Part shown: positions 20,988-24,726 of the stretch, piece after piece
How positions within the stretch are numbered: the stretch's first letter is position 1
Layout of the letters: every line of letters starts with the position of its first letter
NCBI GenBank assembly: GCA_017415185.1
Contig: JAFQHZ010000036.1
Location: 1-53,698, forward strand
Length of the DNA: 53,698 nucleotides
DNA from: Candidatus Gastranaerophilales bacterium
GTDB taxonomy: Bacteria > Cyanobacteriota > Vampirovibrionia > Gastranaerophilales > Gastranaerophilaceae
Direction: 5' to 3'
Program-made: the position numbers and the translations under genes
Notes under the pieces: model-generated
The model's database searches: none
The model's input: the letters and a program-made list of their open reading frames with translations, nothing else
What the model was told of the DNA's origin: nothing

Positions 20988-21251
20988 CTAGCCATTTACA
21001 ATACTTGTGATGAACGAAACCACATCTGAAAAGCCTTCTTTGACAAAATCTCTTGCCAAGGTTTTCAAAGAAGTGTTATCAAAGCTTTCAAATACATACT
21101 GAATTGGATCTTCAGTCGCTTTGAAACGGCATCTGATACTTCTTGAATCGATTTCATTCAAGTTAGATTTCAAAACTTCCGAATTATCAATCGGATTAAA
21201 TGGATTAAATGTTTCTTCCATTAAGTTTGTTCGTTTTTGAAATCTTGCCAT
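20988..21251 (-). CDS. Small hypothetical protein
   Basis: This 87-residue protein is unrecognised. It is polar, with no signal peptide or membrane helix, and its C-terminal third is mildly hydrophobic (FSDVVSFITSIVNG). A weak purine-rich site (AGAGAGA) precedes the ATG, and a good terminator follows. It shares an upstream region with the divergent sigma-factor operon. No function is assigned. Confidence 0.6.
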   Translation of the reverse strand: MARFQKRTNLMEETFNPFNPIDNSEVLKSNLNEIDSRSIRCRFKATEDPIQYVFESFDNTSLKTLARDFVKEGFSDVVSFITSIVNG

Positions 21252-21441
21252 TTTTCATTCTCTCTCTTGGTATATCTCTCTGATATATTAATAAAGTAAT
21301 TTTTAATTAAAAAATTGCCTTTTTTTAGCTAACAAATATATACTTTTTGCAACCCAAATCCTGAAAAGCAGCGCCACAAAGGGCTTTTAAAATATTAAGA
21401 AATGTTACATTAAAAAAATGAACAAAATATAAGCAATTAAC

Positions 21442-21458
21442 GTTATAATAAATATAAC
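21442..21458 (+). promoter_or_regulatory. Palindromic promoter element of the sigma-factor operon
   Basis: GTTATA-ATAAA-TATAAC contains a TATAAT hexamer and lies about 13 bases before the ATG of the first gene, directly ahead of the AAGGAA ribosome site. It could be an operator overlapping the -10, or a small leader hairpin. Confidence 0.35.
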
Positions 21459-21470
21459 AAGGAAAAAATT

Positions 21471-21701
21471 ATGGACGAATTATCAAACTTATTAAAAGAA
21501 GCAAAACCCTTATATAAACAAAGAAAAAGAAGAAAAACAATAGCCAAAATGATTCTTTGTATGACAATGCCTGCAATAATCATCAGCAGCGCCAGTCAAA
21601 TTTATTTGCAGGGCAATGATATTTATTTGTCTTTGGAAAATAACAGCCTGCAATACGAATTAATGGAAGACGATTTTGGACTATTAGGACTCGACAATTG
21701 A
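21471..21701 (+). CDS. Small single-pass membrane protein, candidate anti-sigma factor
   Basis: The 76-residue protein has a short basic cytoplasmic N-terminus (about 1-22, ending KQRKRRK), one membrane helix (about 24-43) and an acidic outer tail. Its stop codon overlaps the start of the downstream ECF sigma gene, so both are translationally coupled. In the CnrYXH system the anti-sigma CnrY is also a short single-pass protein, and the position here suggests the same job. There is no zinc-finger anti-sigma motif, and sequence similarity to known anti-sigma factors is not evident. Confidence 0.65.
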   Translation: MDELSNLLKEAKPLYKQRKRRKTIAKMILCMTMPAIIISSASQIYLQGNDIYLSLENNSLQYELMEDDFGLLGLDN

Positions 21702-22198
21702 AAGATATAATAAGCAAAAATAGCTATAAAATTAAGCAAATAATCAAAAATTTTACAGGCGAATATAACGAAGATTTAGAACAAGAAGTTTATATAAAAA
21801 CATATAAAAATCTTGGAAAATATAGTGAACAAAACAAATTTTCGCAATGGATTTGCACAATTGCAGCAAATCTTTGTCGAGATTATTTAAGAAGTTCCAA
21901 ATTTAAAAAACAGAGCCAAACAACAAACGACGAGGAGCTTTTAAACAACATCGCCAACAAAAAAACACCCGAAATAGAATATTCACAAAAAGAACGCCAA
22001 AAAATAATTTTAAAAGAAATCAACGCACTTCCAAAGAAAATGAAAGAAGTGATTATTCTTTATGAATTTGAGGATTGTTCCTATGAAAAAATTGCCCAAA
22101 AGCTCAAAATTCCAGAAGGAACAGTTAAATCAAGAATTAATAACGCAAGAAAAATTTTAAAAGAAAGACTTAGTTTTTTAATGAAAGAGGAAAACTAA
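21698..22198 (+). CDS. ECF-type RNA polymerase sigma factor
   Basis: This 166-residue protein has the ECF two-domain layout. Region 2 lies at about 20-70 (EDLEQEVYIKTYKNLGKY, then FSQWICTIAANLCRDYLR). Region 4 lies at about 108-160 (LPKKMKEVIILYEFEDCSY, then KIAQKLKIPEGTVKSRINNARK). The start is TTG, overlapping the stop of the membrane-protein gene. Its stop overlaps the next ATG (TAATG). It is the probable regulator of its own operon and of unidentified target genes. Confidence 0.9.
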   Translation: MKDIISKNSYKIKQIIKNFTGEYNEDLEQEVYIKTYKNLGKYSEQNKFSQWICTIAANLCRDYLRSSKFKKQSQTTNDEELLNNIANKKTPEIEYSQKERQKIILKEINALPKKMKEVIILYEFEDCSYEKIAQKLKIPEGTVKSRINNARKILKERLSFLMKEEN

Positions 22199-22659
22199 TG
22201 AATAGAAAAATTTTATCAATTTTAGCAATAATCGCAATAAGCATTTGTTCTGCCCAAGCGCACGATTACCACAATAACATCCCTCGTAAGCCAACTTTTA
22301 AAGAACAAAAACAAATGGACAATTTAATCGACAAAAGATTAAAATTAACAGAGGAGCAAAAAGACCATCTCAAAAAAAATCGTTCACAGCACAGAAAAGA
22401 GATGGAAAAAGTTGTTAAAAAAATGGAAATTCAACACGAAAAAATCAGAAACATCTATTTTTCGGGTATTCCAAAATTTCAAGCAGATATAAAAACTGCT
22501 CCAATGAAAGCAGAACTCGTCCTTTTGAAGCAAAATGCTGACAAATTAAGGCAAGAACACAGAAAAAATTTCGAAAGTTCGCTAACAGAAGAACAAAAAA
22601 TCGAATTTAAAAAATTAAGAAAAGAAATGGCTCAAAATAGACCAAAAAATCATAGATAA
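22198..22659 (+). CDS. Periplasmic LTxxQ (Spy/CpxP/CnrX-like) protein
   Basis: The 153-residue product has a signal peptide (MNRKILSILAIIAISICSAQA, cleavage after residue 21) and two LTEEQ motifs (50-54 and 129-133), the signature of Spy/CpxP/ZraP/CnrX-type periplasmic proteins. The mature protein is helical, very basic and has several histidines (H22, H25, H57, H65, H80, H121, H152) that could bind metal. Spy and CpxP are chaperone-like stress sensors; CnrX senses metal for an ECF sigma factor. The genetic coupling to a sigma factor favours a sensory role here. Confidence 0.85.
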   Translation: MNRKILSILAIIAISICSAQAHDYHNNIPRKPTFKEQKQMDNLIDKRLKLTEEQKDHLKKNRSQHRKEMEKVVKKMEIQHEKIRNIYFSGIPKFQADIKTAPMKAELVLLKQNADKLRQEHRKNFESSLTEEQKIEFKKLRKEMAQNRPKNHR

Positions 22660-22664
22660 TTTTA

Positions 22665-22693
22665 AAACCAAGCTTTCTTAGGCTTGGTTTTTT
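22665..22693. terminator. Bidirectional terminator
   Basis: AAAACCAAGC-CTAAGAAA-type loop-GCTTGGTTTT separates the sigma operon from the convergent 682-residue gene. It overlaps that gene's last few codons. Confidence 0.8.
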
Positions 22694-24726
22694 GGTTGCG
22701 TTCTTTTTGGTGTTTTAATATAATATTTCAATTCTTCCATTCGCTCTTCAAGCATTTCCCTTTTGTAGCGTTGAAATTCAGGATTTGCTTTTTTGCCCTC
22801 AATATATTGCGCAAAACTAAATCTTGGTCTGATTTCATCCAGTAATTTTTCTTGGTCAATTCCCGAAAGATCAACATCACCACAAAGAATTTTAATGTCT
22901 TCGATTTCGGCTTCGCTTAATGATTCAACAGGTCTCAAATTTTGATGAGATAACATTGAAACATCAGGCTTGATTTGCAATTCTTCGCGTTTTGGGCGAT
23001 TTTTTCTTATTATAACCTTTTTAGAAACCGGCAAATCGCCTTCAATTGGTTCAGGCTTTCCATCTAAACCAATTCGATATGTCATTCCATATTTTTCACC
23101 TGTCAAAGGGTCATAAATTTCAAAAGCGTCGCCTTGTTTCCAAAGGTATCTATCCATTTCAAAAGCTTCATCACTAAGCCCTTCTTGAGCAGAAGAAACA
23201 ACGCTTCTATGTCGTTCTTGCAACTCTTTTGCCATTTTATGCGCTTCTTCAGGCGTATAATGATAATGTGATTGTTCAATTGGCTTAGCTGTTTCCAAAA
23301 TAGAAAGAGCTTCTCCAGGCTTTGCATCCATAGCTTTTTTTGATTTATCAAAAGCCGTTTCAAAATCATCCTCATCGAGCGGAAGATTTTTCCAAGTTTT
23401 TGCTTCATCAATTATTTGTTGAACCTCGTCCTTTGGCTGAGTTTGAGGCGTTTTTTTAGCAACGTCTTTAGTTATCTTTGTTTTTTGTTTTTTTGGTTTT
23501 TCAATATTTTTCGATTTAGTTTTTGGCGTTTTTGATGATGAATCAATTTTTTTAGAAACATCGCCTTTTTTAGCAACACTTGAAGCAGCAGGAACTTGTT
23601 TTTTTGCAACTGCTTGCGCTTCGTCAAATCCGCAAAGAATTTTTAATTCTTCCATTTCACTATCAGAAAACGGTTTAACTGTTTCCAATTTTGGAGGTGA
23701 ATTCAAAGTTTCTTGGACAACTTGCGCTTGAATTGGCTTTTCAACTTGAACTTGTTTAGCTAATTCGCTCGCTTTTTGTAATGTTTCTTTCTTTGGCTCA
23801 CTTGCTGCTTGAGAAGCCGCTTTATTGACAACAATTCCTTTTGAAGGCGCTGATTCAACCGCTTCTTGAACAATAACAGGTTTCTTTTTAGCAAACAAAG
23901 ATTTAAACATTTTAGCAATTTTACTTTGTTTTTTAGAAACCTTATTATCGGGTTTTAGCGGAGCTTCGCTAGAATTAATAACTTTCGAAGAAGTTTCAAT
24001 CAGTTCTTCTTGAGTTTTTGCTGGAGGCAAAGCCTTAAGCGAATAATCCGGCATTTTTTCATATAACGGGATTGGATTTGTACCATTAGCCACTGGGGCT
24101 TTTGGTTTCTTTATGCCGCTTCCTTTTTTAGCATCAATAATTGGTTTTGGAAGCTTTGGAAGATTATTTCCCTTTTGATTAATTTGAGGCGAAGAAACGC
24201 CAACAACTTCTCCTTGCTTAGTTTTAATTTTAGGAGTAGAAGAAATAGAAGCTTGAACTCCTTCATTTACTGCTTGAGAAGCATTTTTATTGGAAGCTTG
24301 CGCTGCTTCTTTTTCGCATTGTTCCATATAATCGTGATAAGCCTTTTTAATGTCTTTTGCAAGTTTTCCAAAAAAACCATCTTGTTTGGATGTTGTTGGT
24401 TTTTTTGGAGTGTCAGCTTTTTTTGTTAAATTGCTAAAAATTTCGCCAATTTTTGCTTTGTTTTTAAACAGCAAAACACCACCCGCAGCTAAACCAAGGG
24501 TAATTACAGCAATTTTCAAAGCTTTTGCAATATCAAATTTTTTGTTTTTTTCTTTTGGATTATTTTTTTGTGAACGACTAAAACTATCAAGCGGAGTTGC
24601 AACTCCTGTGTTAATCCAATTTGTTAAAGAACCGCTCATGCCCAAAATTCTTTGACCACCCAAATCTGCAGTGGACATCAAATTAGAATTTGAATTTGCA
24701 TTATTAATGTTTAATCCTCGGCTCAT
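22678..24726 (-). CDS. Membrane-anchored disordered protein with repeated KILCG motif
   Basis: This 682-residue protein is unrecognised. It has a polar N-terminus (1-65), one membrane helix (about 69-87) and a long Lys/Pro/Ala-rich, probably disordered region. Two copies of S-[DE]-[SA]-E-[MI]-E-[ED]-[LI]-KILCG occur at 354-366 and 604-616, each followed by acidic residues. Both copies centre on one Cys-Gly. The C-terminal 130 residues are charged and helical. There is no ribosome site. It is divergent from a glycosyltransferase-like gene. A scaffolding or envelope-spanning role is possible but unproven. Confidence 0.7.
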   Translation of the reverse strand: MSRGLNINNANSNSNLMSTADLGGQRILGMSGSLTNWINTGVATPLDSFSRSQKNNPKEKNKKFDIAKALKIAVITLGLAAGGVLLFKNKAKIGEIFSNLTKKADTPKKPTTSKQDGFFGKLAKDIKKAYHDYMEQCEKEAAQASNKNASQAVNEGVQASISSTPKIKTKQGEVVGVSSPQINQKGNNLPKLPKPIIDAKKGSGIKKPKAPVANGTNPIPLYEKMPDYSLKALPPAKTQEELIETSSKVINSSEAPLKPDNKVSKKQSKIAKMFKSLFAKKKPVIVQEAVESAPSKGIVVNKAASQAASEPKKETLQKASELAKQVQVEKPIQAQVVQETLNSPPKLETVKPFSDSEMEELKILCGFDEAQAVAKKQVPAASSVAKKGDVSKKIDSSSKTPKTKSKNIEKPKKQKTKITKDVAKKTPQTQPKDEVQQIIDEAKTWKNLPLDEDDFETAFDKSKKAMDAKPGEALSILETAKPIEQSHYHYTPEEAHKMAKELQERHRSVVSSAQEGLSDEAFEMDRYLWKQGDAFEIYDPLTGEKYGMTYRIGLDGKPEPIEGDLPVSKKVIIRKNRPKREELQIKPDVSMLSHQNLRPVESLSEAEIEDIKILCGDVDLSGIDQEKLLDEIRPRFSFAQYIEGKKANPEFQRYKREMLEERMEELKYYIKTPKRTQPKNQA

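Follow-up and report, generated by a model that had tools for sequence, protein, structure and literature searches.

A conserved ECF sigma factor operon of gut Gastranaerophilales with a predicted minimal anti-sigma factor derived from a zinc-bearing family

Results

A trio of overlapping genes for a membrane protein, an ECF sigma factor and an LTXXQ protein

The window analysed here is a stretch of 53,698 nucleotides from Candidatus Gastranaerophilales bacterium, an AT-rich gut genome of 1.87 Mb, with gut metagenome-assembled genomes of the same candidate order as close relatives on record. It carries an operon of three genes on the forward strand (Table 1). An earlier note, made from the sequence of this DNA, had described these genes as translationally coupled, and both junctions bear this out: the TTG start of the sigma gene overlaps the TGA stop of the first gene (AATTGA), and the string TAATG joins the sigma and LTXXQ genes. 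The assignment of the second and third products was likewise confirmed. The second matches the Pfam sigma70 r4_2 (E 4.9e-15) and r2 (E 2.5e-10) domains with no r3, as is usual for ECF sigma factors. The third, in which LTEEQ occurs twice, scores above the cut-off for PF07813 and thus belongs to the LTXXQ (Spy/CpxP) family. The 76-aa first product has no Pfam match. The hairpin beyond the operon, recognized by eye, is absent from the output of a terminator scan.

Two genes on the opposite strand flank the operon. The 87-aa protein adjoining it features the motif DPINLAF..IE..SLKTLA.DFVKE, which is also found near the operon in several relatives of the genus, while the convergent gene codes for a protein of 682 aa that is low in complexity, rich in Lys and Pro, and has a hydrophobic segment close to its start. 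Neither of these proteins has a Pfam match.

Table 1. Features of the operon and its immediate flanks in the window
Feature	Position	Strand	Basis
87-aa protein adjoining the operon	20988-21251	-	open reading frame
ECF promoter of the autoregulatory type: -35 TGAAC (21419-21423), 17-nt spacer, -10 region CGTTATAAT (21441-21449)	21419..21449	+	
Shine-Dalgarno AAGGAA of the first gene	21459..21464	+	sequence; AAGGA likewise placed in most relatives
Minimal membrane anti-sigma factor (predicted), 76 aa, ATG start	21471..21701	+	profile-profile match to zinc-bearing forms
Predicted cytoplasmic sigma-binding peptide MDELSNLLKEAKPLYKQRKRRK, residues 1-22	21471..21536	+	conservation; matches the RsiW helix 3/linker region
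Transmembrane segment, residues ~23-41	21537..21593	+	hydropathy; helix spanning 12-56 in a relative's AlphaFold model
Periplasmic C-terminal tail motif DDFGLLGL	21669..21692	+	shared by zinc and short forms
ECF sigma factor, 166 aa, TTG start	21698..22198	+	Pfam sigma70 r2 and r4_2; TIGR02937 E 1.2e-26
Secreted LTXXQ protein, 153 aa, Spy/CpxP/ZraP/CnrX-type fold	22198..22659	+	PF07813 E 1.1e-7; Spy profile match; model
Terminator-like hairpin AACCAAGC-TTTCTTAG-GCTTGGTT, then TTTT	22666..22693	+	by eye in sequence
682-aa Lys/Pro-rich protein	22678-24726	-	open reading frame

Phyletic distribution of the operon

Of the 58 relatives searched, nearly all have a close homologue of the sigma factor, and the order anti-sigma, sigma, LTXXQ was the same in all 46 loci fetched; the layout of the trio is thus not due to chance. 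Conservation of the trio in relatives was one of the points on which the earlier reading of the locus could have failed, and the synteny holds across the order Gastranaerophilales.

Within the genus of the window, the circuit has decayed repeatedly, with close orthologues not found in four of its genomes (G006, which is 77% complete, G010, G022 and G027). Since the sigma gene is missing or broken in several members of the genus, the circuit is dispensable. As to the remains in individual genomes, G011 has a frameshifted sigma gene (L023 and L222), G010 retains only an orphan LTXXQ gene (L271), and G022 and G027 lack both the sigma and the LTXXQ gene.

Beyond the order, gut Alphaproteobacteria share the operon, its short anti-sigma and its promoter; 61 loci were recovered there after removal of duplicates (L204-L267; e.g., L258 from Azospirillum sp. 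CAG:239); two of these loci are cut such that the anti-sigma gene is unreadable. Among 115 sampled genomes of Alphaproteobacteria only four carry the operon, all four of them small. A literature search returned no paper on the ECF factors of Gastranaerophilales.

Promoter and candidate regulon

The motif GAAC-N16/17-CGTT lies upstream of 43 of the 46 orthologous operons, and in most genus relatives it is placed about 46-58 nt before the ATG. Its fuller form, GAAC-N16/17-CGTTATAAT, is found roughly once in each genome, in front of the trio; genomes that lack the sigma gene do not have it. Judged by sequence, the operon has the ECF promoter of an autoregulated circuit (GAAC at -35, CGT at -10), and autoregulation by its own sigma factor is predicted. 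A sigma-70 promoter scan yielded matches near the shuffle mean. The palindrome GTTATA-ATAAA-TATAAC, which the earlier note placed at the promoter, does exist in this sequence; we rejected it as an operator, as it occurs in only one of the 46 operons. It overlaps the conserved -10 element, of which its left half forms a part.

A search of the genome for promoters resembling that of the operon, which the earlier note had suggested, identified six operon or gene starts, all of secreted or membrane proteins. The five besides the trio were found with a looser -10 (CGTTTT or CGTTCT) and precede genes for a His-rich secreted protein with WG repeats, a TolC (PF02321, E 1.6e-49), a His/Cys-rich membrane protein, a secreted protein with YDKYG repeats, and a secreted protein of 97 aa, after which a His-rich one is encoded. 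The other loose matches lie inside coding DNA, as most do, or before no open frame. The raw motif is not enriched genome-wide, and a scrambled control pattern gave no clear gene start in 14 distinct matches. As an indicative figure, a strong N-terminal hydrophobic stretch was seen in 36 of the 40 genus starts fetched, loci partly chosen by eye, versus 8 of 45 genes of the window; the remaining four starts belong to one membrane protein family. Because the motif precedes secreted, often His/Cys-rich proteins and TolC, these genes are suggestive of an envelope regulon, although this motif might also serve other ECF factors in the genome. In four alphaproteobacterial genomes the promoter pattern is too loose to be used.

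Two further kinds of genes were seen behind this promoter type. In G005, a gene for a very His-rich secreted protein (86 aa, 14 His) has this ECF promoter and immediately precedes the operon (L154, G005:C4:85585-85639). A genus-wide family of secreted proteins of about 90 aa, with the signature TTNVYV..NIMCT..GICTNGY and no clear Pfam family, is found in 11 genomes (L156-L158, L160, L161, L168, L171-L174 and L177).

Zinc-bearing sister forms of the short membrane protein

Outside the genus of the window, in the order's other genera and families, the operon begins with a gene for a longer protein of 105-128 aa, in which C5, H23, C27 and C30 are invariant. ZAS anti-sigma factors have this CHCC pattern. 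Used as a profile, the zinc forms recovered RsiW, the anti-sigma factor of SigW in Bacillus subtilis, as the sole significant match in the PDB (E 1.9e-4), with the alignment running through the Hx3Cx2C motif on into helix 3. Since the Pfam zf-HC2 model detected the zinc forms only below its cut-off (E 0.005-0.016), their placement in the ZAS family rests on this profile match.

The short forms, which range from 72 to 94 aa, match a profile built from the zinc forms alone over their whole length (probability 99.6, E 7e-24): their first residue aligns at column 41 of the zinc forms, and the alignment reaches the last residue. Their start Met corresponds to an internal Met kept in nearly all zinc forms. 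The CnHx3Cx2C motif, which in ZAS factors spans helices 2-3, is absent from the window protein and all other short forms; the window protein also lacks helices 1-2 and the first half of helix 3, and hence the four-helix class I domain with its helix 1 on sigma4. By these alignments, the 76-aa protein is a descendant of a class I ZAS anti-sigma factor from which the zinc domain has been lost, given that the short form begins exactly at the conserved internal Met. Relative to RsiW, what it keeps aligns with the end of helix 3 and the next linker, while the RsiW ectodomain is missing as well, and its operon, unlike that of SigW, places the anti-sigma gene first.

In a tree of 106 sigma proteins, the partners of all short forms fall in one clade (support 100/97), with Alphaproteobacteria forming one clade with the Gastranaerophilales short forms (95/91). 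A cross-phylum transfer of the operon is thereby likely, and the simplest reading is that the zinc domain was lost a single time and the operon then moved once into gut Alphaproteobacteria. On adding outgroup sigma factors, the short clade was kept (97/98), with the base of the tree being a fork that leaves its placement versus the zinc forms unsettled. As the sigma tree thus does not fix the root among the zinc forms, it is the homology to RsiW that favours loss over gain.

The retained peptide and its predicted contact with the sigma factor

The description of the first product in the earlier note as a single-pass membrane protein with a basic cytoplasmic end holds across the family: residues 1-26, with a net charge that averages +5.3 over 85 short relatives, are basic, and one hydrophobic segment follows. 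Among 83 distinct sequences from the two phyla, E10, A11, P13 and Y15 are invariant, and S5, L7, L14 and K19 are kept at 92-99%, while the transmembrane segment is nearly free to vary. Both zinc and short forms share a tail consensus LPxD[ED][YF]GLL (D 93%, L 92%).

The SigW-RsiW structure offers a template for interpreting this pattern. There, the C-terminal half of helix 3 lies in a groove of sigma4, burying 1316 A2, and helix 3 with linker L4 occupies the sigma2 groove, burying 1805 A2, with helix 1 contributing only 489 A2; CnrY has only the part equivalent to RsiW helices 3-4, with a similar binding mode (PMC5358783). As aligned, the segment kept in the short forms corresponds to the larger part of the RsiW-equivalent interface, namely the second half of helix 3 and the linker. 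From the sequence and by analogy, we infer that residues 1-22 would bind and inhibit the sigma factor. An AlphaFold model of a read-through fusion of anti-sigma and sigma from a relative (A3; 35 such loci are naturally in frame, and the stop was read as Gly) was uninformative on the complex (pTM 0.43) and had helices at residues 3-10 and 12-56, with a break before Pro13.

The LTXXQ protein

A PDB search with the single LTXXQ protein returned nothing useful, whereas the family profile retrieved Spy (3OEO, E 1.7e-5) and the Salmonella VirG-like STV (5.2e-5). The model of the window protein (pLDDT 92.6) has CnrX, ZraP, STV and CpxP as its best plausible fold matches, with target TM-scores of about 0.5-0.8 and weak E-values. 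On these grounds the protein is predicted to act in general like the Spy, CpxP and CnrX partners. The many histidines noted earlier come down to a modest seven after the signal peptide and are not a family feature: among 37 relatives no His is invariant, nor any Cys or Met besides the start, and the CnrX-type conserved metal ligands (His, Met, Glu) are lacking. Metal sensing, though possible, is not supported as a family trait, as no His is conserved. In two genomes (L027, L028), the LTXXQ protein has a Cys/His-rich N-terminal stretch (CNCDCKCDCGCDHHKGHHHGYHKGHH), a possible metal-binding tail.

Comparison with known systems

The likeness to CnrYXH of Cupriavidus metallidurans, raised in the earlier note, proves closer than was supposed there. 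Both systems combine a short membrane anti-sigma, an ECF sigma and a CnrX-like periplasmic helical protein, the LTXXQ fold matches CnrX, and the kept segment is the part of RsiW to which CnrY is equivalent; yet there is no sequence match to CnrY, with 4CXF not found at E 10 by the short-form profile. CnrY is a class II anti-sigma factor, with two helices that wrap sigma2 and sigma4 from outside and no zinc. The window protein differs from it in a cytoplasmic part of only about 22-26 residues, and the LTXXQ protein differs from CnrX in what appears to be a cleavable signal peptide and in the absence of conserved metal ligands from its family. Spy, CpxP and ZraP are kin of the LTXXQ protein by family, by profile match (Spy) and by fold (ZraP and CpxP), but the window version is encoded with an ECF sigma and an anti-sigma and not with a two-component system.

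By description, the SigAb/AabA/AabB system of Acinetobacter baumannii is similar in joining an ECF sigma, a small membrane anti-sigma and a periplasmic partner, with autoregulation and a very small direct regulon (PMC12153292). There, AabA and AabB both inhibit SigAb, and the 41-residue cytoplasmic part of AabA alone suffices (PMC12153292). It differs in that AabA has 107 aa with those 41 cytoplasmic residues, in its gene order, and in the copper response known for SigAb. A possible further parallel is the RpoE8 operon of Azospirillum brasilense, where an ECF sigma gene neighbours one for a hypothetical protein and one whose product carries the annotation of a periplasmic heavy metal sensor (PMC12826043).

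Weighing the alternatives

The reading toward which we lean, if by a modest degree, is that the 22-residue cytoplasmic peptide is a complete anti-sigma, representing a natural step from a ZAS class I to a CnrY-like factor, made by losing the zinc domain and taking over an internal start codon, which then spread between two phyla of bacteria in the gut. One might instead suppose that the short protein no longer inhibits and is a remnant tethering the sigma factor to the membrane, an activator, or a start-site leader for the sigma gene, with the LTXXQ protein or transcription alone controlling the circuit. The zinc bundle and helix 1, the sigma4 contacts in all known class I anti-sigmas (PMC7406223), are indeed gone, and the tight overlap with the sigma gene could explain retention through translational coupling alone. 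We consider this unlikely, as a leader would not need E10, A11, P13, Y15 and K19 to be nearly invariant across 83 sequences from two phyla, and as the larger share of the RsiW interface lies in what is kept. Still less probable is an ancestral short form to which fusion added the zinc domain in other lineages. The fork at the base of the outgroup-rooted tree would let the short forms be sister to all zinc forms; however, the zinc motif of RsiW, a protein from a different phylum, runs without a break into the kept helix, the zinc-form profile aligns this whole helix end to end, and a fusion would need to recreate that register.

A narrower version of the main model concerns the signal: in a CnrYXH-type metal circuit, the LTXXQ protein would bind Zn, Cu, Ni or Co, and the regulon would buffer or export the metal. 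The fold matches to CnrX and ZraP, the secreted His/Cys-rich proteins and the TolC among the candidate targets, and the His/Cys-rich N-termini of some LTXXQ relatives (L027) make this a tentative option with a real but minority share of our confidence. Against it are the lack of an invariant His, Cys or Met besides the start, His counts that span 0 to 12 across the LTXXQ family, nearest sequence matches that are the chaperones Spy and STV, and the absence of a metal pump among the candidate targets.

Discussion

A compact anti-sigma/ECF sigma/LTXXQ circuit with an unusually small anti-sigma, as first proposed from the sequence, is well supported by the synteny and the RsiW homology, and we regard it as quite likely that the operon is an autoregulated envelope-stress switch. 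Beside the homology, domain loss, conservation, promoter and candidate regulon computed here, we infer the sigma binding by the short peptide, the roles of the tail and the LTXXQ protein, the proteolysis and the stimulus. At rest, the 76-aa protein in the inner membrane would hold the ECF sigma via its 22-residue cytoplasmic peptide, probably as a helix, a Pro kink and a short basic helix set in a groove across sigma4 and sigma2. The zinc domain would have been lost once, with a Met once inside the protein now serving as the start of translation. On the periplasmic side, sensitivity may be set by the conserved tail (LPxDEYGLL) together with the Spy/CpxP-like LTXXQ protein: when free, the latter would hold or shield the tail; when drawn away by misfolded protein or metal, it would leave the anti-sigma to be cut and the sigma released, which would then transcribe its own operon along with a few secreted His/Cys-rich proteins and TolC.

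The layout and the general mechanism are of an already known kind. The novelty lies in a class I anti-sigma that has lost its zinc half in nature, so that about 22 cytoplasmic residues are left, and that has spread across two phyla. Anti-sigma factors are classified by structure, and the relation between the resulting classes is not clear. Here intact zinc forms and stripped forms stand side by side, cut at a conserved Met, and because both coexist in one family, an origin of CnrY-like factors from class I becomes testable. If true, a 22-residue inhibitor of an ECF sigma would be a compact part for synthetic circuits. The operon further provides a case of the transfer of a regulatory operon across phyla and, for the uncultured gut Gastranaerophilales, a first predicted stress regulon.
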